Assembly (NCBI RefSeq): GCF_018437505.1
Contig: NZ_CP072467.1
Coordinates: 2,790,001-2,854,000 of the forward strand
From: Spiractinospora alimapuensis
Lineage (GTDB): Bacteria; Actinomycetota; Actinomycetes; Streptosporangiales; Streptosporangiaceae
DNA: 64,000 nucleotides
Direction: 5' to 3'
Shown here: positions 3,555 to 58,609 of the stretch, in pieces
How positions within the stretch are numbered: position 1 is the stretch's first letter
Layout: the number at the start of each line of letters is the position of its first letter
Translations under genes and position numbers: made by a program
The notes under the pieces: generated by a model
The model's input: the letters and a program-made list of their open reading frames with translations, nothing else
What the model was told of the DNA's origin: nothing
Database searches by the model: none

Positions 3555-4361
3555 GTGCCCGATCCCCACGGTTCCCCCCAGCGTCCCCCTGCGTTCGACA
3601 CGTCCGTCCCGCACTCGGCGCGGGTCATGAACTACTGGCTCGGCGGAAAGGACTGGTACCCGGCGGACCGGGCGATGGGCGACCAGATCCTTGAGTCGTT
3701 TCCCGAGATCGTGGCGGTGATGCGGGCCGACCGGGTCTTCCTGGAGCGCGCCGTCACCTTCCTCGTGCGGGACGCGGGAGTGCGGCAGTTCCTCGACCTC
3801 GGCACCGGGCTTCCCACGGCCAACAACACGCACGAGGTCGCGCAGGCCATCGCCCCGGAGTCGCGGATCGTCTACGTCGACAACGATCCGTTGGTGTTGA
3901 CCCACGCCCGGGCGCTACTCACGAGCGCCCCTCAGGGGGCGACGGAGTACGTGGACGCCGACGTCCGGGACACCGACCGGATCCTCACAGAGGCGGCCGC
4001 GACCCTGGACTTCTCGAAGCCCATCGCCGTGTCCCTGCTGGGGATCACCACGCACCTCGAGGACGACGAGGCGTACGGGGTGGTGCGACGCTACGTGGAC
4101 GCCCTGCCGGTGGGGAGCTATCTCGCCCTGTGCGACTGCACCGACACCAGCGACGCGATCGTCCGAGCCGCCAGTCGGTGGAACGAGTCCGCCTCTCCCC
4201 CGGTGCGGCTGCGCACGATAGAGGGAATCACCAGCTTCTTCGACGGACTGGAGGTCCAGCCCCCGGGTGTGGTTCCCGCGCTGCGCTGGCGGCCGGGTCA
4301 CACCGACATCGGGGGCGTGAAGGACGTCGACCTCTACGGCGGGATCGGTCGGAAGGTCTGA
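3555..4361 (+). CDS. SAM-dependent methyltransferase, DUF574 family
   Basis: A 268-aa protein from GTG 3555, chosen because AGGAG at 3542-3546 lies 8 nt upstream; ATG 3537 is an alternative. Family marks: N-terminal ARVMNYWLGGKDWYPADR, the SAM-binding motif FLDLGTGLPTANNTHEVAQ and VYVDNDPLVLTHARALL. DUF574 (PF04672) proteins are abundant in Streptomyces and relatives; their acceptors are mostly unknown. Monocistronic; divergent from the PspC gene. Confidence 0.9.
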   Translation: MPDPHGSPQRPPAFDTSVPHSARVMNYWLGGKDWYPADRAMGDQILESFPEIVAVMRADRVFLERAVTFLVRDAGVRQFLDLGTGLPTANNTHEVAQAIAPESRIVYVDNDPLVLTHARALLTSAPQGATEYVDADVRDTDRILTEAAATLDFSKPIAVSLLGITTHLEDDEAYGVVRRYVDALPVGSYLALCDCTDTSDAIVRAASRWNESASPPVRLRTIEGITSFFDGLEVQPPGVVPALRWRPGHTDIGGVKDVDLYGGIGRKV

Positions 4362-4643
4362 CGCCCGACTCCGATCGCGCCGGTGGAGCATCGCCACCGT
4401 ACCCCGGTGCCCCACACTCAGGGCCGTCCACCGTCGCCTGGCCGGCACGCGGCGAACGACACCTCCGCGACCCGGACTATCGGAGGAAAGGTCAGCGGGC
4501 GCGGCCGCCCAGGGAGGGGTGTTGGGCGGCCACGCCCGCGGGTGCCACCGTGCGGCGGGAGTGGGAAAAGGTTCCGCACGGCGGCTGGAAGACCTGCCGG
4601 CCGAGCGCACTGGCGCCTGCGCTCGCCCGGCAGGTGGCTCTAT
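4362..4643. other. Intergenic region, convergent genes
   Basis: Between the methyltransferase stop and the ATPase stop. No gene is supported here; open frames lack ribosome sites and family features. No perfect long hairpin was found. Confidence 0.5.
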
Positions 4644-5129
4644 TTATGTTGTACGAGGAATGGAGAACGCGGCCCAGACGACCTTGCCGCGACCATCCCT
4701 GTGCTCCCAGCCCCATTCCTGGCTGAAGCGTTCCACCAGGTGAAGCCCGCGTCCCGACTCCGCGGTCTCGTCCACGCGGGCCAGGGCCGGCTCCCGTGAG
4801 CTGGAGTCGGAGACCTGACACACTACGGCAGAACGTCCGCGGAACAGGCGCAGTTCGATTTGTTCGTCGGCGTGTCCCTTGTCGGAGGCATGCCGCCAGG
4901 CGTTGGTGACCAGCTCCGAGACGACCAGCCGGACGTCCTCGCACAACTGTGCGAGTCCCCAGCGAGCCAGGACCGACACGCTGAAGTCCCGCGCGTGTCC
5001 GGCCGCGGTCTCCTGACCGGCAAGGCCGCACACGGCGGTGTCCGCCGCAGCGTGGCTGTCGCTGGCTGAGAGCGCCGGCTTCCCGGTACCGCCCTCGGCC
5101 TCTAGGTCTGGCGAGTTCATCACGTCCAT
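4644..5129 (-). CDS. ATP-binding protein, anti-sigma-factor-like HATPase
   Basis: A 161-aa protein, start ATG 5129 with GGGGA about 5 nt upstream. It has a single GHKL-type ATPase domain: N box LVVSELVTNAWRHA and G box ESGRGLHLVERFSQEWGWE. Stand-alone HATPase_c_2 proteins of this size are relatives of RsbW/SpoIIAB anti-sigma factors. In actinobacteria they are often encoded next to XRE-DUF5753 and DUF397 genes, exactly as here. It is divergent from the XRE gene across a 238-bp promoter region with a palindrome. Confidence 0.88.
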   Translation of the reverse strand: MDVMNSPDLEAEGGTGKPALSASDSHAAADTAVCGLAGQETAAGHARDFSVSVLARWGLAQLCEDVRLVVSELVTNAWRHASDKGHADEQIELRLFRGRSAVVCQVSDSSSREPALARVDETAESGRGLHLVERFSQEWGWEHRDGRGKVVWAAFSIPRTT

Positions 5130-24734: not shown

Positions 24735-26993
24735 CTACGAGGCCGCGGCGTCGACCGGTCCGCGTCGGACCGCCTGCCAGGCCGGGAGCAGCGTGGCCAG
24801 CAGGGTGACGAGCACCGTCCCCGCGACGACCGTGACGTAGATCCACGGTGAGCCGGTCCACTGCGTGGTGTCGGCGCGGCCGACGCTGAACGCCACGAGT
24901 GGCACGACGGCCGCGATCGTGCCGAGGACGATGCCGATCGCCGCGATCAGCAGGCTCTCGATGGAGAGCATCCGCATGACCTGCTCGCGGGTGGATCCGG
25001 TGAGGCGTTGCACCGCGAACTCTCGGGTCCGGGCATTGGTGCTGGAGGCGAGGGTGTTCACCACCGAGATCACGCTGTAGGTGACGATCATGACGACGAT
25101 GGTGTAGATCGCGAACGACTCGATGTCCTGGTTCTCCGCGTAGGCGTCGGCCAGGGCCTCGCTGCTGGATACGTCCACCCCGGCCTGGCCGGTGGCGAAG
25201 TCCTCGAGTTCGGCGAGCATCTGATCCGTGGCGGTGCCGTCCGCGGCGGAGACGAGGATCTCGGTCGCGTGCCCCGCGGTGGTGTGGGCGGCGAGGGTCT
25301 CGGTCGGGAGCAGGAGGGTGTTGTCGTCGCCGCCGACGTCGAAGAGGGCGACGAGTTCGACATCGAGGGGGGCGTTATCGCCCATCCGCACGGTGAGCGT
25401 GTCGCCGACCGCCAGTCCGAGTTCCTCGGCGTTTCCGCTGTCCATGGCCACGGTGGCCCCGCTCAGGGCGTCGGCCGAGCCGTCGGTGACCGGAGCGGAC
25501 CACACCGCGCCCACACCGCCCGGGTCGACACCCTCCAGGATCCAACCGTCCCACCGGGCCTCGCCCTCCCAGTTCTCCGGGTCGTCGATAGGGTGCTCGA
25601 GGAAACCTCTGCTGTTGACGTATCCGGAGACCTCCCCGACCTCGGGGAGGTCGCGCACGTTGTCCACGAGTTGGCCGTCGACTCCGCCCTCCGCCGTGAC
25701 GACAGCGTCGGAGGACAGACCGTCGACGTACTCCTGGTGTACCGCGTCCTTGCCGGTGTTGTGCATGTACAGCAATCCGGCGCTGATACTCGTCAGCAGG
25801 ATGACCGGCATCGCCACCGCGGCCGTCCGGTCGACGCCGGCGCGCACGTTGAGCATGGCCAGCCGGCCCGACTGGCCCATCAGTGCCCCCAGCGGTGACA
25901 GCGCCGCGGCGAGGGGCCGCGTCAGCGCGGGACTGAGCACCGCCAACGCGATCCCCATGACGATCACGGCCGGCGAGCCGGTGGTGGAGGCGTAGCTTCC
26001 ACTGTTGACGGTCATGGTCACGACACACAGGGCGATGCCACCGAGGAGCAGGGCGACACCGAGCAGGGGACGCCAGAACCCGATGCGGTTGCGCTCGGGA
26101 AGCCCGGCGCTGGCCAGGGCCTCGGTGGGACGGGTCCTGGCCGCCGCGCCCCCCGCGACGGCGGCGCCGCAAACGGCCGCGAGCAGCGCCGATCCGATCC
26201 CGATGGTGATCGGGATCCACCCCATCTGGAACGCGATCTCGTCGATGGTGACCCCGTTGCGGACCATCTGCAGTTGGAGGAACTCCGCGAGCCAGCGTGC
26301 GGGGAGGATCGCGAGTCCGGTGGCGAGGGCGGACAGGATCACCGTCTCGCCCAGGATCAGGGCACGGAGCTGCCCGGGTGTGCTCCCGACGGCCCGGAGC
26401 AGTGCCATCTCGCGTCTGCGTTGGTGGATCGTGAGAGCCAGCATCGACGCCACGCCGAACACCGCGATCATGATGGCCCAGGAGCCGAACACGCCCGAGA
26501 GGACGACGAGTCCCTCCGCGTGGATGGCGGCGTCGGGGACCTCGGCGACGCCCCGGTCGTCGCCGACCAAAGCCACCGCGCCGCCGGGGATCTCGGCCTC
26601 GATGAGCGCACGGAGCTGGTCGACCTCGACTCCGGGTTCGGCGACGACGGCGATCGCGTCGACGGTGCCGGCGGGCGCCGGGTCGTCGATGGTGTGGTTG
26701 GTGGCCTCCCGCACCCCGGGTACCGCGGCGACGGCGTCGACCAACGCGGCGTCGATCCGGGCCCGCTCCTGCATGGGCGCCGTGTACTGCATCTCCGGGA
26801 CCTCGTACTGCTGGTCGCCGGCGACGACGACGTCCGCACCGTCGAGTTGTCGCGGCGGAACATCCCCTCGGATGCCCGTCTCCATCAGCCCGCCGCAGGC
26901 CATGACGATCGTCGCGCCGAGGAACATCGTCAGGAAGGCCGCGAGGAAGCTCCCCTTGCGGTGCCGCAGGGTGCGCAGCGCCAGCCGGATCAT
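24735..26993 (-). CDS. ABC transporter permease, FtsX/MacB type
   Basis: A 752-aa membrane protein with an N-terminal helix (LTMFLGATIVMACGG), a large extracytoplasmic domain, and two FtsX units. The first has the motif IHQRRREMALLRAVGSTPGQLRALILGE (near residue 200); the second ends with TNARTREFAVQRLTGSTREQVMRMLSIESLLIA. Between them another large soluble domain is present. Such proteins pair with LolD-type ATPases to export peptides or lipoproteins or give antibiotic resistance. ATG overlaps the ATPase stop by 4 bases. Confidence 0.92.
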   Translation of the reverse strand: MIRLALRTLRHRKGSFLAAFLTMFLGATIVMACGGLMETGIRGDVPPRQLDGADVVVAGDQQYEVPEMQYTAPMQERARIDAALVDAVAAVPGVREATNHTIDDPAPAGTVDAIAVVAEPGVEVDQLRALIEAEIPGGAVALVGDDRGVAEVPDAAIHAEGLVVLSGVFGSWAIMIAVFGVASMLALTIHQRRREMALLRAVGSTPGQLRALILGETVILSALATGLAILPARWLAEFLQLQMVRNGVTIDEIAFQMGWIPITIGIGSALLAAVCGAAVAGGAAARTRPTEALASAGLPERNRIGFWRPLLGVALLLGGIALCVVTMTVNSGSYASTTGSPAVIVMGIALAVLSPALTRPLAAALSPLGALMGQSGRLAMLNVRAGVDRTAAVAMPVILLTSISAGLLYMHNTGKDAVHQEYVDGLSSDAVVTAEGGVDGQLVDNVRDLPEVGEVSGYVNSRGFLEHPIDDPENWEGEARWDGWILEGVDPGGVGAVWSAPVTDGSADALSGATVAMDSGNAEELGLAVGDTLTVRMGDNAPLDVELVALFDVGGDDNTLLLPTETLAAHTTAGHATEILVSAADGTATDQMLAELEDFATGQAGVDVSSSEALADAYAENQDIESFAIYTIVVMIVTYSVISVVNTLASSTNARTREFAVQRLTGSTREQVMRMLSIESLLIAAIGIVLGTIAAVVPLVAFSVGRADTTQWTGSPWIYVTVVAGTVLVTLLATLLPAWQAVRRGPVDAAAS

Positions 26994-27793
26994 CGCGCCG
27001 CTCCGGACGTTGGCGGGGTCGTGGTGTCGTCCGCCCAGGCGCCCAGATGCGTCATGCGTTCGGCCACCGCCTCGGCAGTGGGGTTGTAGAGCTCGCGCGC
27101 CAACCGTCCGTCCGCCATGAACACGACCCGGTCGGCGTAGGAGGCGGCGACGGGGTCGTGGGTGACCATCACGATGGTCTGTCCGGCCTGCCGCACCGCG
27201 TCACGCAGCAGGGCGAGGACGTCGCGGGCGGATCGTGTGTCGAGCGCACCGGTGGGCTCGTCGGCGAACACGACGGCCGGGTCCGTGACCAGGGCCCGGG
27301 CGATGGCGACGCGTTGCTGCTGCCCTCCGGAGAGCTCCGCGGGTCGGTGCTTACGCCGCTCCTCCAGGCCGACCTGACGCAGGGTCTCGGTCACCCGTTG
27401 ACGATTGGGGCGGCGCCCGGCCATCTCCATGGGCAGCCGGACGTTCTGCGTCACAGTCAGGGCGGGGAGCAGGTTGAACGCCTGGAAGACGAACCCGATC
27501 CGCTCGCGGCGCAGCATGGTGAGCCGCTTCTCCTTTAGCGGCCCGATGTCCTCGCCATCGAGGTAGACCGAGCCCGAGGTGGGCCGGTCGAGCCCCGCCG
27601 CACAGTGCAACAGGGTGCTCTTGCCCGAGCCAGACGGGCCCATGACCGCGGTGAACGTGCCGCGGTTGAACTCGACGCTCACCTCGTCGAGCGCGGCCAC
27701 CGCGTTGCCACGCCGGCCGTACACCTTGCGTACCTCGGCCAACCGCACCACTGCCTGGGTGGTGCCGTCCGGCGATTCCCCATCCGGTATCAA
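26990..27793 (-). CDS. ABC transporter ATP-binding protein, LolD/MacB type
   Basis: The frame is open from GTG 27847. TTG 27793 with GGGAG 5 nt upstream is the start I prefer, because the DNA before it carries operator-like repeats and the 18 extra residues are basic and not family-like. Motifs: Walker [16 protein letters not shown]-loop [14 protein letters not shown], signature [14 protein letters not shown], Walker [12 protein letters not shown]. Coupled to the FtsX permease downstream. Confidence 0.88.
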
Positions 27794-27840
27794 CGTCGCT
27801 CCCTTACCGATTCGCGTACGTCCCACCCTGCGTGTCGGTC

Positions 27841-27901
27841 CTGACACCCGGGGGCCACGGCGCTGACACGCGTTCCTTCTGAGGGCCGGACCGTGTCAGC
27901 G
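27841..27901. promoter_or_regulatory. Repeated CTGACAC motif with 10-bp inverted repeat
   Basis: CGCTGACACG (27861-27870) and CGTGTCAGCG (27892-27901) are exact inverted repeats 21 bp apart. A further CTGACAC stands at 27841-27847. They lie in the region shared by the divergent FtsX-type and DrrAB-type exporter units and could be a common operator. Confidence 0.45.
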
Positions 27902-52837: not shown

Positions 52838-55267
52838 CTACTCCCGTGCCGCCACCAGGGCGGCCGGAGGCTGGCGCAGAGCGCGCGACGCTGGGATCAC
52901 CGCGGCCAGTAGCCCCAAGGCGAGGCACGCGACGAACACGACCCCGAGGGTGGGCCACGGGAGGTGGACCGATACGTCGGCGACCTCCCCCGGACGGAAG
53001 TCGTCGCGCATGCCCGTCGCGAGGGCGAGAAGTGCCGGTGCGGAGATCAACCCTCCGACCAGCAGGCCGATGGTTACCACGAGACCCGACTCCGCGACCA
53101 CCAGCCCCCCGACCTGACGGGACTGCGCGCCGGTCACCCGCAGCAGTGCCAGGTCCCGGCGGCGCGCCGACGTGGCGAGGGACAGCGTGTTGGACATCGA
53201 GATCGAGGCGTACCCCACCGCGAGGACGAGGATGACGCCAGTGAACATCTCGATGAGACCGGTCTCCTGGGCGACCCCCGCGTCGATCAACGTCGCCCCC
53301 ACGTGCGCCTCGGACCCCTGGTCCGCGACCGCCGCGGAGAGCGCGTCGACGTCGGATTCCGGCGGAGGGTAAACGTTGCTGACGAAGGCCGCGGGATCGT
53401 GCTCGCGCGCGAGGTCGTGCGGCATGGCCAGGTCCGCCCACAGCTCCGTGTAGAAGGGGTGCGGGCCGACCGTCACCGGTATCCGCCCCGTCGTTCCGTC
53501 GCGCCAGGTCAGCTCCACGGTGTCGCCGTCCGCCCATCCGAGCTCGGTGGCGATCTCCGGCGACGCCCGAATGGTGCCCGCCTCGGGGGCGTCCTGGTGC
53601 AGACCGGCCGCGTCCACCCATCGCCCGTCCACGTACACGCCGGTGGCGAGCACACTGGTGACGGCCCCGTCGGAGTTCTCCTCGACCCTCCGCAGCGCGG
53701 TCTCCGTGACCCCGACATCACCGTCGGGGCCGGTCACCATCGTGTCCCCGGGGAGATCACCCACGGAGTGCTCGGCGATCGCACCGTTGATCGTGCTGGT
53801 CATACCGAGCATGGTGACCGCGAACGCGGCGACGAGCAGGACGGGCATCATCGTCGAGGCCAGTCGTCTGGCCCCCGCCCGCGCCTCCGCGTGCAGCAAC
53901 TCCCCCAGCGCCGAACCTCCGATCGGAAGCACCCGGACCAGGCGCGGCAGGTAGGCCGGCGCGGAGGCTGTCGCGGCCAGCACCAGGAACATGGTGGTTC
54001 CGAGCGCGTAGCCAATGATGTCGTCCTTCTCGGTCAGGACCGCACCCGCCGCCGCTCCCGCGGCGAGGAGGACCGACAGTCCGGCGCCCCACCAGCGCCA
54101 CCGGGGCATGGTCGCGTCCGCCCGCACCTCCTCGGGACGAAGAGCCTCCAGTGGGGCGACCGCCGCTCCCCTGACGGACGCGGCCCAGACGCCCATGAGA
54201 GCGGTGGTGATCCCGACGGCCACGGCCGCGCCCACGGGCAGTGCGACGGCGCGCATCTCCCAGGTCGGGGCCAACAGGTCATTCCGGACCAACCACTCAC
54301 TCAGCACCGAGGCGCCGCCAACGCCCAGCGCGGCCCCGACGAGCGACGCCGCGACCCCCACGACGGCGGCCTCGCGCATCAGCATCGACCGGACCTGTCG
54401 CGGCGTCGCCCCCACGGCCCGCAGCAACCCCAGCTCCCGACGACGCACGGCCACCTGGAAGCTGAACGTGGCCCCGACGATGACGACCGAGGAGAACAGT
54501 GCGACCAACACGATCATGATCAACAACTGCATCCCCAACCAGTTGTTGGAGTTGTCGAACTCCGACCGCGCGGCACCGCTGTCGATGTCGGTGAAGACCT
54601 CCGCCGTGGGGCCGAGGACCTGTCGCACGTGCTCGCCGACCTCGTCCGGCGAGGCGTCGTCCACCGCGACCACCCCGATGAGGGAGACGGAGGTGGCCAC
54701 ACTGTCGGCGAAGGCGTCGGGCAGGAGCACATCCTGACCGTCGGTAGTCGCCGCGACCGTCATCCGCTCCTCGGCGTCGGCCGTCAACACGGTGACGGTG
54801 TCCCCGGGGGACCGTCCGTAGGACTCCGGCAGCACGACACCGGTCTCGCCGCTCGGCGGCTCACCGTCCCGTAGTTCGACGTCCCCGAGGGGGAGACTCG
54901 ACATGCCGGCACCGTTGGGATCGCCGGGGACGGCATCACCGAGAACCTGGTCGCCGTCCATCACGCGGACCTCGAAGCGGCGCTCGGCCACCGCCCGGGC
55001 GACACCGTCCGCCCGCCCGACCTCCTCGGCCAGGGCGTCGGCCTCGTCCATCCGCCACACTGCGCGGCTGAACTCACCGTCGTAGGTGAGCCCGGTCCGC
55101 TCGGGGACGGCGAGGACGTCCGCCCCGGCGTAGTGCCGTGGAACGGTCGGGGTGGAGGAGGCCATGACGATGATCGACGCCGCGAGCAGCGCGACCCCCA
55201 GCGCGAGCGCGACGAACCCCCCGAGGGTCGAGCGCCACCGGTGCAGGATCGAGGAGATCGTGTTCAC
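52838..55267 (-). CDS. ABC transporter permease, FtsX/MacB type
   Basis: An 809-aa protein from GTG 55267, whose start overlaps the stop of the ORF upstream (GTGA). It has an N-terminal helix and large extracellular domain, a first FtsX unit with FQVAVRRRELGLLRAVGATPRQVRSMLM, a middle membrane block, a second extracellular domain and a second FtsX unit with SARRRDLALLRVTGAQSRQVGGLVVAE. Paired with the LolD-type ATPase at 55854 and with the divergent two-component system; probable peptide-antibiotic or lipid exporter. Confidence 0.9.
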   Translation of the reverse strand: MNTISSILHRWRSTLGGFVALALGVALLAASIIVMASSTPTVPRHYAGADVLAVPERTGLTYDGEFSRAVWRMDEADALAEEVGRADGVARAVAERRFEVRVMDGDQVLGDAVPGDPNGAGMSSLPLGDVELRDGEPPSGETGVVLPESYGRSPGDTVTVLTADAEERMTVAATTDGQDVLLPDAFADSVATSVSLIGVVAVDDASPDEVGEHVRQVLGPTAEVFTDIDSGAARSEFDNSNNWLGMQLLIMIVLVALFSSVVIVGATFSFQVAVRRRELGLLRAVGATPRQVRSMLMREAAVVGVAASLVGAALGVGGASVLSEWLVRNDLLAPTWEMRAVALPVGAAVAVGITTALMGVWAASVRGAAVAPLEALRPEEVRADATMPRWRWWGAGLSVLLAAGAAAGAVLTEKDDIIGYALGTTMFLVLAATASAPAYLPRLVRVLPIGGSALGELLHAEARAGARRLASTMMPVLLVAAFAVTMLGMTSTINGAIAEHSVGDLPGDTMVTGPDGDVGVTETALRRVEENSDGAVTSVLATGVYVDGRWVDAAGLHQDAPEAGTIRASPEIATELGWADGDTVELTWRDGTTGRIPVTVGPHPFYTELWADLAMPHDLAREHDPAAFVSNVYPPPESDVDALSAAVADQGSEAHVGATLIDAGVAQETGLIEMFTGVILVLAVGYASISMSNTLSLATSARRRDLALLRVTGAQSRQVGGLVVAESGLVVTIGLLVGGLISAPALLALATGMRDDFRPGEVADVSVHLPWPTLGVVFVACLALGLLAAVIPASRALRQPPAALVAARE

Positions 55268-55857
55268 GCTTCCTCCAGCATCGCCATGGGAACGGTGATC
55301 GACTCGGTGTTCCCGTTGTCCTCGGCGCGGGCGGCTGCTTCGGCCGGCGAGTGGGCGTCATCAACGCCACACGGTGACCTAGGCACGGTCACGCGTCCCT
55401 CGACCGCGCCACGTATCGGGACGCCCGGCCGCTCGGGCCGCACGCGGTCGAGGGCCGGGTCGCGTGACCGGCCGAGGCCCGGGCGCGCACACGTCCTCGC
55501 GCCTCTCGACGTGAGCCTCGTCCCGCCCACCTCCAACGTCGCCATGGCCACGGAGACTGACCCGGTGTTCCGGTTGTCCTCGGTGTACACGGCGGCGTCG
55601 CCGGCCTGGCCTCCACGCCCGGCTTCTACCGGAACGTGAGACGCGACGGGGGCACGTGGCGACCTGGGCGCGGTCACGTGTTCTTCGGCCTCGCCACGTC
55701 CCGGGACGCCGGGCCGTTCGGGCCACACGTGGTCGAGGGCTCGGGGCGGTGACAGAAGGACGTACGGGCGGGCACGCCTCCTCCCCCTGACCCGCTTCGC
55801 CACGTCCGTGCGAGCGACGGCGAAGCTGGTCGGTCGTGGAACGAGGGTCGTCTTCAC
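55264..55857 (-). CDS. Chimeric repeat ORF between ABC ATPase and permease, 197 aa
   Basis: GTG 55857 overlaps the ATPase stop and TGA 55264 overlaps the permease GTG, so the frame is coupled at both ends. Its last 20 residues (EDNGNTESITVPMAMLEEA) copy the ATPase C-terminus (DTLDTESVAVRMAKLEEA). An earlier internal copy (EDNRNTGSVSVAMATLE) follows a repeated block PERPGVP...VTAPRSP. Its start region GTGAAGACGACC copies the permease start GTGAACACGATC. It is Arg/Pro-rich with no known domain. Probably born by tandem duplication of the ATPase-permease junction; may be translated only as a coupling leader. Confidence 0.45.
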   Translation of the reverse strand: MKTTLVPRPTSFAVARTDVAKRVRGRRRARPYVLLSPPRALDHVWPERPGVPGRGEAEEHVTAPRSPRAPVASHVPVEAGRGGQAGDAAVYTEDNRNTGSVSVAMATLEVGGTRLTSRGARTCARPGLGRSRDPALDRVRPERPGVPIRGAVEGRVTVPRSPCGVDDAHSPAEAAARAEDNGNTESITVPMAMLEEA

Positions 55858-56594
55858 GCTTCCTCCAGCTTCGCCATCCGCACCGCGACGGACTCCGTGT
55901 CCAGGGTGTCGCCGGCGTGGGCGTCGATCTCGTCGACGATCCGTCCGTCGGCCATGAACACCACACGGTCGCCGCGTGCGGCGACGGCCGGATCGTGGGT
56001 GACGACCACGACGGTGCGGCCGTGGGCGTCCACGACCGAACGCAGATGCTCCAGGACCTGTCGGCCCCGAGCCAGGTCCAGTGCGCCGGTGGGCTCGTCG
56101 GCGCAGACGACGGCGGGCTTGGTGAGGACGGCGCGGGCGATGGCGACGCGTTGTTGCTCCCCACCGGAGAGCTGGTGAGGGCGATGGTCGGCACGGTCGC
56201 GCAGGCCGACCGAGTCGAGGGCGTCCAGGGCGTCGGTCGGTCCGACCCGGCGGCCGGCGAGGCGAGCGGGAAGGAGCGCGTTCTGGGCGGCGGTGAGGGC
56301 GGCGATCAGGTTGTAGCTCTGGAAGACGAACCCGATCCGTTCCCGCCGGAACTCCGTGAGCTCCCGCTCCCCCAGTCCGCCGAGTTCGACACCGTCCACG
56401 ACGACGCTGCCGCTGTCGGGGCGATCGAGCCCCACCGCGCAGTGCAGCAGGGTCGACTTGCCCGATCCGGAGGGGCCCATGATCGTGGTGAAGGTCCCGC
56501 GGGCGACGTCGAGGGACGCGCCGGCCAGGGCAACGACCTCATGGTCTCCCGTGGAGTAGCGCTTGGCCACTGTCTCGAGGCGAATGGCAGTCAT
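55854..56594 (-). CDS. ABC transporter ATP-binding protein, LolD/MacB type
   Basis: A 246-aa protein; ATG 56594 (GGAG lies too close upstream, so initiation may be leaderless or unusual). Walker [16 protein letters not shown]-loop FVFQSYNLIAALTA, signature [14 protein letters not shown], Walker [13 protein letters not shown]. It pairs with the permease at 52838. A repeat-derived ORF lies between them. Confidence 0.9.
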   Translation of the reverse strand: MTAIRLETVAKRYSTGDHEVVALAGASLDVARGTFTTIMGPSGSGKSTLLHCAVGLDRPDSGSVVVDGVELGGLGERELTEFRRERIGFVFQSYNLIAALTAAQNALLPARLAGRRVGPTDALDALDSVGLRDRADHRPHQLSGGEQQRVAIARAVLTKPAVVCADEPTGALDLARGRQVLEHLRSVVDAHGRTVVVVTHDPAVAARGDRVVFMADGRIVDEIDAHAGDTLDTESVAVRMAKLEEA

Positions 56595-56705: not shown

Positions 56706-57926
56706 GTGCCCACATACACCGCACGCCTGGCGATCACCCGGGCTCCGCATCGCTTCCTGCTGTCGTGGTGGCCGTGGCGCGCCCTGCTGTACCTGGTGTT
56801 GGGCGCGCTGCCCGCCGTGGTTCTGTTGGGTGCGGTCAACATGATCCAGCTCGCCACCGAGGCCGACCCGGTTTGGATCACGGTGGCGCTGTTGGGCTTC
56901 CTGGTGGTGGTCCTGGGCGGGGCACCGCTCGCGGCGCGCTGGGCCCGAGTCTCCGCCGGCCTGGTGGGTGAGCCGTTGGAGCGACCGGTCGCACGGTCCA
57001 CTTCCGTGGGGCTCCGAGACCGACTGGCCGCTCCGTATCTCTGGCGGGAGGTGGCCTACTCCGTTCTCAGCGTGAGCGTCCTGTTCGTGCTGGACGTCGC
57101 GGTCCTGGTCATCGCGGTCGGCGCTCCCGTGCCCGCGATCGTCGCCTACGCGAACTCCGACGTGCTCACGCTGGTGGAGCGCGCCATCACGGTCGTCGCC
57201 TGGGCGTCACTCTGGCTGGTGGGGGCGTACCTGCTCACGGCGTGGGCGTCGGCTCGGGCGGAGATCGTCCGTGCGGTACTGGCGCCGCGGGACGAGCGCC
57301 TCGCGCGGGAGCTACGGGAGATGACGCGGTCGCGCGCGGCCTTGGCCGAGGCCTTCGACCAGGAGCGGCAACGCATCGAGCGCGACCTGCACGACGGCGC
57401 GCAACAGCGGCTGGTCGCCGTCAAGGCGTCCCTGGGGCTGGCCCGCCTGGACCTGCCGCCGGACGCTCCGGCCGCCGACGCCGTCCGCGAGGCGCGGGAG
57501 CAGGTGACGGCGGCCCTGGACGAGCTGCGTGATCTCGTTCGCGGCATCTACCCGCTGGTACTGACCGAGCGGGGGCTTCCCGCCGCGGTGTGGGACGTCG
57601 CGGCCCGTGCCGCCGTGCCCGTCGAGGTCGAGTTCCACCTACCCGACCGCCTGCCGGGGCCGGTTGAGTCCACGGCGTACTTCGTGGTCTGTGAGGCGAT
57701 CGCGAACGCGGCCAAGCACGCGCCGCGGTCCACGGTGCGGGTGGAGGGATCGGTTCGGGGTGCCCGGCTACGCGTGGACATAGTCGATGACGGTCCCGGT
57801 GGCGCCAGCCCGTCGGGTGGCGGCCTGAGCGGGCTGCGCAACCGGCTGGCGATCCTCGGGGGCACGTTGGTCGTGGACAGCCCGGACGGCGGGCCGACCC
57901 GGGTACGACTGGAGATTCCCCTGTGA
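56706..57926 (+). CDS. Sensor histidine kinase (HisKA_3 family)
   Basis: A 406-aa protein starting at GTG 56706, likely leaderless (TACCGT ends 7 nt before). Two pairs of membrane helices within residues 1-190, then the dimerisation/phosphorylation motif FDQERQRIERDLHDGAQQRLV with H229, and an ATPase domain with EAIANAAKHA (N box) and GLSGLRNRLAILGG. Probably senses a peptide antibiotic or envelope stress and drives the divergent exporter. Confidence 0.92.
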   Translation: MPTYTARLAITRAPHRFLLSWWPWRALLYLVLGALPAVVLLGAVNMIQLATEADPVWITVALLGFLVVVLGGAPLAARWARVSAGLVGEPLERPVARSTSVGLRDRLAAPYLWREVAYSVLSVSVLFVLDVAVLVIAVGAPVPAIVAYANSDVLTLVERAITVVAWASLWLVGAYLLTAWASARAEIVRAVLAPRDERLARELREMTRSRAALAEAFDQERQRIERDLHDGAQQRLVAVKASLGLARLDLPPDAPAADAVREAREQVTAALDELRDLVRGIYPLVLTERGLPAAVWDVAARAAVPVEVEFHLPDRLPGPVESTAYFVVCEAIANAAKHAPRSTVRVEGSVRGARLRVDIVDDGPGGASPSGGGLSGLRNRLAILGGTLVVDSPDGGPTRVRLEIPL

Positions 57927-58609
57927 CGAACCCCGCGACGAACATCGAAGAGACGTCGGGCGGCGTGAACGTCGTGGTCGCCGACGACTCGGTCCTGCTG
58001 CGCGAGGGTGTGGCCGGTGTCCTGCGCCGATTCGGCCACCGTGTACTGGCCGCGGTGGGAGACGCTGACGCCCTGGAGACGGCGGTGCGTGACCACTCCC
58101 CCGACCTGGTCGTTACCGACGTACGGATGCCTCCCGGCTACCGCGACGAGGGGCTGCTGGCCGCGGTGCGCATCCGACGCGCCCATCCCCACCTGGGGAT
58201 CATCGTGCTCAGCCAGTACGTCCAACCCACCTACGCCTCCGATCTGCTGGAGATCGACGCGCCGGCCGGCGTGGGCTACCTCCTGAAGGAACGCATCGGC
58301 GACGTCGAGGAGTTCGCCGACGCCGTCACGAAGGTCAGCGCCGGCGGATCCGTACTCGACCGCGACGTCGTCCGCGTCATGCTCGCGGCCCGCTCCAACC
58401 CGCTCACCCGCCTCGCCCCACGGGAACGCGAGGTCCTCAGCCTGATGGCCCGCGGCGAGTCCAACACCACGATCGCCCGAGAACTGGTGGTCTCCGACGC
58501 CGCCGTCCGCAAACACATCGGTTCCATCTTCACCAAGCTCGACCTCGCCCCCGAAACCGAGGGCCACCGCCGGGTGTTGGCCGTCCTCACCTACCTCGCC
58601 GGAGAGTGA
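57923..58609 (+). CDS. NarL/LuxR-type response regulator
   Basis: A 228-aa protein; GTG overlaps the kinase stop. Receiver domain with VVADDSVLLREGV, phospho-acceptor D66 in VTDVRMPP, and K in YLLKERIGD. The C-terminal LuxR helix-turn-helix has LAPREREVLSLMARGESNTTIARELVVSDAAVRKHIGSIFTKLDL. Partner of the kinase; its target is probably the 56653 palindrome. Confidence 0.93.
   Translation: MTNPATNIEETSGGVNVVVADDSVLLREGVAGVLRRFGHRVLAAVGDADALETAVRDHSPDLVVTDVRMPPGYRDEGLLAAVRIRRAHPHLGIIVLSQYVQPTYASDLLEIDAPAGVGYLLKERIGDVEEFADAVTKVSAGGSVLDRDVVRVMLAARSNPLTRLAPREREVLSLMARGESNTTIARELVVSDAAVRKHIGSIFTKLDLAPETEGHRRVLAVLTYLAGE

Follow-up and report, generated by a model that had tools for sequence, protein, structure and literature searches.

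The analysed window, a 64,000-nt stretch of the Spiractinospora alimapuensis genome, contains a transporter module composed of an ABC ATPase, a permease and a two-component system. The ATPase gene (55854-56594, minus strand; 246 aa; Pfam ABC_tran, E 5.4e-32) is the upstream member of the transporter pair and encodes a MacB/LolD-like protein, with MacB and LolD as its top NCBIfam matches, each under its cut-off. The downstream member (52838-55267, minus strand) encodes an intact FtsX-type permease of 809 aa (Pfam FtsX-like permease C-terminal, E 4.3e-28) that is 55-60% identical to seven orthologues. Transcribed divergently is a sensor histidine kinase gene (56706-57926, plus strand), which adjoins the ATPase gene in seven Nocardiopsis loci out of eight; the exception is a contig fragment. 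The response regulator gene (57923-58609, plus strand) was assigned to the same module from an NCBIfam match and the Nocardiopsis neighbourhood. The kinase and regulator genes have a 4-nt overlap of their own, at 57923-57926. MacB/LolD-type ATPase/permease/two-component modules have been linked to antibiotic sensing.

Between the ATPase and the permease lies ORF197, a 197-codon open frame with a GTG start (55264-55857, minus strand). As the earlier note had described, this frame is joined to both neighbours by GTGA overlaps: its GTG overlaps the ATPase TGA in the four nucleotides 55854-55857, and its own TGA overlaps the permease GTG in the four nucleotides 55264-55267. With overlapping pairs defined by a stop/start overlap of 1 or 4 nt, ORF197 forms such a pair at each of its ends.

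Relatives of the module mostly have a single, direct ATPase-permease junction. Matches to the permease at E ≤1e-60 were found in 45 of 341 family genomes, its own included, and junctions were examined in 30 loci, with loci L055-L058 left out of the locus analysis. An overlap was counted when any listed start gave -4 or -7, and by this measure 27 of the 30 loci have a direct overlap of 4 or 7 nt, in agreement with the earlier expectation that some relatives would have one. The remaining three are the genome studied here (+586), a distant transporter with a spacer, and a locus without an ATPase on its contig (L067). An alignment-based search of named-genome contigs returned eight loci, all from Nocardiopsis (N. 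listeri NBRC 13360, N. coralli, N. suaedae, N. potens, N. halophila, N. ganjiahuensis, Nocardiopsis sp. JB363 and a metagenome-assembled N. listeri fragment), which are the eight nearest family loci already counted and add no independent evidence; a query with the permease only gave no match. Kinase, regulator, ATPase and permease follow in the same order in all of these except the fragment, and in the seven closest orthologues seen the ATPase/permease overlap is 4 nt. The same four components make up the MacB/LolD-like module described here, and the difference seen from its Nocardiopsis orthologues is the insert between ATPase and permease. On this comparison, the 586-nt junction is the derived state.

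A gap of a different kind was observed in a distant genome (G264, locus L085, about 3886-4870, minus strand), where a related transporter has 973 nt, or about 1 kb, between its ATPase and its permease. This gap has stops in all three forward frames and was judged, by reading it, to be unrelated to the insert.

The end of the insert resembles the end of the ATPase gene, as the earlier note had claimed. The final 108 nt of ORF197 (55268-55375, minus strand), immediately before the permease start, align with the roughly 112 nt that lead up to the ATPase stop (55858-55969, minus strand), with small indels and with only the end of the copy in the ATPase frame. The local alignment score of 54 was reached by none of 300 dinucleotide shuffles, which scored at most 41, and 41 was also the maximum among 834 window-strand pairs elsewhere in the 64 kb (overlapping 450-nt windows, junction excluded). 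Two of the windows, at about 33.4-33.9 and 27.0-27.6 kb, gave insert scores of 41 and 38 and were dismissed on inspection as GC-rich matches of about 40 nt. When the insert was searched against its own genome, with 40 of 126 first-look candidates scored, the best non-self match was again the ATPase tail (76% identity over 66 nt, E 1.1e-5). The locus comparison gave the copy a score of 54 against its own ATPase and at most 34 against those of 28 other loci, which places its origin in this lineage, with the local gene as the template. Similarity extends through the junction itself: the original block of GGAGG Shine-Dalgarno-like motif and GTGA (55845-55870, minus strand) aligns at 22 of 26 nt with a duplicated block before and at the permease start, GGAGGAAGCGTGA (55255-55280, minus strand). 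The copies resemble the flanking genes in the same order and orientation, as a tandem duplication predicts, with only about 13 nt on the permease side.

Within the insert there is a second repeat. The first copy (55622-55783, minus strand), which carries a PERPGVP...PRSP block, and the second (55337-55498, minus strand), which continues into the last ATPase-tail copy, are 71% identical over 162 nt without gaps; aligned with each other, the halves of the insert score 117, and none of 300 shuffles exceeded 35. Spacings between the halves are 285 and 258 nt, both multiples of three. A middle, decayed copy of the ATPase tail (55516-55591, minus strand) emerged from the internal repeat family and a three-way alignment, and has retained GGAGG while its GTGA start/stop is gone. 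Taken alone its similarity to the ATPase is not significant (101 of 300 shuffles were as good), although among 29 loci its best match is its own ATPase, at 34 compared with 28 or less elsewhere; we assigned it to the ATPase tail because it is linked to it via the last copy.

These results uphold the earlier claim of at least two rounds of duplication with a repeated PERPGVP...PRSP block, and qualify others. The middle ATPase-tail copy stands on its locus match and its link to the last copy, not on its own alignment. The proposal that the start of ORF197 copies the permease start holds for 10 of 13 nt, and nothing significant follows: the next three 13-mers match at 3 of 13 each, the insert is no more similar to the permease 5' end than chance allows (140 of 300 shuffles score equally well), and the permease 5' end is ruled out as a source past about 13 nt. 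A clean duplication of the ATPase-permease junction, as first envisaged, is not supported by the insert. About one third of its 586 nt can be traced, namely the 108 nt of the last copy, the 76 nt of the middle copy and the start. For the other two thirds or so, including the twice-occurring PERPGVP/PRSP block, no source was found in the flanking genes or in the genome itself, where, among the 40 of 126 candidates scored, no other source or copy of the internal block rose above noise and the best further match was 39 nt at E 0.005. The likeness of the internal block to either gene is at chance level and the insert as a whole does not derive from the two flanking genes; duplication of flanking genes therefore explains only part of it.

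ORF197 is an orphan in the searched set. Searches of Pfam (up to E 1) and NCBIfam (up to E 0.1) gave no match, and neither did the eight Nocardiopsis loci at E ≤1e-6. Matches at E ≤0.01 occurred in 11 of the 341 family genomes, this genome included, and the best outside this genome had E 1.8e-4 and 32% identity over residues 3-96. Across the 341 family genomes, the eight Nocardiopsis loci, Pfam and NCBIfam it is without a convincing homologue, in a searched collection that covers about half of GTDB species and contains one genome of the genus. A long protein conserved at this position in all relatives, which the earlier note had named as evidence against its own reading, was found neither in the orthologues examined nor in the 341 family genomes.

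Codon usage separates ORF197 from established genes. Its codon score of -0.159 is under those of all 36 real-gene windows (minimum 0.320), on a model trained on the same eight window genes used for comparison and thus biased towards them, and it exceeds those of all 500 shuffles (maximum -0.188). Only one of seven sub-windows, the ATPase-tail copy, has a gene-like codon score. GC content by codon position is 0.74/0.63/0.81 in ORF197 and 0.73/0.52/0.90 in the permease, and the predicted product, with a pI of 10.5, 14% Arg and 11% Pro, is unlike the four neighbouring proteins. Differences between the two halves of the insert are spread flatly over the codon positions (11/20/16, of 54 each), with a dN/dS of 0.81 that falls within the 0.61-2.31 spanned by the five remaining frames. 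A comparison of the middle and last tail copies, only 76 nt long, gives a dN/dS of 0.54 in the ORF197 frame; this is the lowest value among the six frames, two of which come close at 0.55 and 0.63.

An open frame of this length is not improbable at 73% GC. The ORF197 frame was open in 121 of 2000 shuffles, and 500 runs of a neutral simulation left it open 59 to 209 times, by the divergence assumed. Over the divergences tried, one would expect about 1 to 4 nonsense mutations, and the chance of none is 0.35 to 0.02; ORF197 has none. In the wrong frames of nearby real genes, 196-codon windows were open in 0 to 111 of 159 cases, by frame. The absence of stops and a codon score above the shuffles could mark some selection. 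Overall the coding tests lean towards a sequence largely free of selection, though a slight hint of constraint remains, and the evidence for ORF197 as a gene is mixed and weak. The birth of a new gene, which the earlier note had suggested, finds no support in codon usage, substitution pattern and amino-acid make-up, all of which are mostly non-coding in look. Its companion suggestion, that the arrangement could preserve translational coupling, agrees with the GTGA overlaps at both ends of the frame.

We consider it probable, at roughly 0.7, that the locus holds a decaying, lineage-specific insert that arose in at least two steps, including local tandem duplication, and whose open frame may serve as a translational relay. 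The comparisons show that the ATPase tail was duplicated, that this state is derived, that the frame overlaps both neighbours and that the sequences searched contain no convincing homologue. The ATPase 3' end, together with its stop/start junction, would have been duplicated locally in tandem as one part of this insertion of two or more steps, which would have parted ATPase and permease genes that formerly overlapped. Most of the insert would now be a decaying relic, with one open frame kept or present by chance. Because this frame overlaps both genes, a ribosome path from ATPase through ORF197 to permease is possible in principle, and the relay would have two steps: ribosomes leaving the ATPase would reinitiate on ORF197 and then on the permease, where the copied Shine-Dalgarno/GTGA block would provide the restart. 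When 38 nt separated the genes of E. coli test pairs, reinitiation fell by 80-90% in two of them and was abolished in a third (PMC10666635), so an untranslated gap of 586 nt should uncouple the permease. Of 14 overlapping pairs tested in E. coli and an archaeon, 13 showed strict coupling (PMC6728339). Ahead of the permease the block retains GGAGGAAGCGTGA, and the middle copy only GGAGG; keeping GTGA before the permease while losing it in the middle copy is as expected if selection acts on the permease start only. The ORF197 peptide is probably not under selection, and we infer that it has no function as a protein. On this reading the permease would depend on the relay; alternatively, it could start independently at its Shine-Dalgarno-like motif.

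Other accounts of the locus give ORF197 a larger role. A duplicated stop/start junction would place a new frame in a coupled operon, where it would be translated at once without an evolved promoter or ribosome site, and ORF197 might then be a gene in birth, held open by the need of the permease for passing ribosomes; we regard this as rather unlikely. We think it unlikely that ORF197, born in the duplicated junction, already works as a protein peculiar to this lineage, be it a new third member of the transporter operon or a regulator. The Shine-Dalgarno-like GGAGG, the overlaps at both ends of an open frame, a codon score that beats every shuffle, repeat spacings in multiples of three, the conservation of PERPGVP and PRSP between the halves and the low dN/dS of the tail copies speak for such a protein, but the flat substitutions and dN/dS of the main repeat, a codon score lower than in any real-gene window, the lack of a Pfam or NCBIfam match and a best match of 32% identity in the other family genomes argue against it.

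Two further readings concern the origin and nature of the DNA itself. A permease-like start followed by an ATPase-like tail is also the signature predicted if the whole ATPase-permease pair had been doubled in tandem and large internal deletions had left only the ends. This collapsed operon duplication would require two rounds, and it sits poorly with an insert that shows no permease similarity beyond 13 nt of copied start and carries an internal block unlike either gene; we consider it quite improbable. We hold it very improbable that the insert, in place of a coding or relay segment, represents an RNA element (regulatory or structured) or the decayed remains of a mobile element. Its predicted folding is a little stronger than that of shuffles (z -1.78, with 3 of 100 as good) and most of its length is without a located source, but Rfam gave no match at E ≤1, a check for terminator- or promoter-like sites was negative, and no second genomic copy rose above noise among the 40 of 126 candidates scored; the folding, Rfam and terminator/promoter checks lend the RNA reading little support. 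Target-site duplications are usually much shorter than the ATPase-tail similarity, which far exceeds their usual length.

The insert, with its possible relay frame, shares features with two kinds of known system. Like the pairs for which termination-reinitiation coupling at short overlaps has been described (Huber et al., 2019, PMC6728339; Huber et al., 2023, PMC10666635), it has 4-nt stop/start overlaps, a Shine-Dalgarno-like motif and genes for subunits of one complex. It differs from them in that the subunit genes are separated by a third frame, without evident function, that overlaps each of them, and in that coupling is here a prediction. Bacterial orphan genes and proto-genes, for example an overprinted gene (PMC4683798), resemble ORF197 in being lineage-specific open frames without convincing homologues. 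ORF197 differs from that gene, having arisen with duplication at a gene junction and with no overprinting, and is known only as a predicted frame in the DNA. Among the titles and abstract openings that made up the literature surveyed, no frame born via duplication of an overlapping junction turned up, which is no proof of absence. As a single case in a single genome, the ORF197 locus is a natural test of whether coupling can outlast a 0.6-kb insertion through a relay frame, and also of whether coupling alone keeps a meaningless frame open until a gene forms.

Elsewhere in the window, at 24735-27847 (minus strand), a second ABC ATPase lies beside a permease-like gene, both named by eye. This pair has an ordinary 4-nt overlap, with the permease ATG ending at 26993 and the ATPase stop at 26990-26992.
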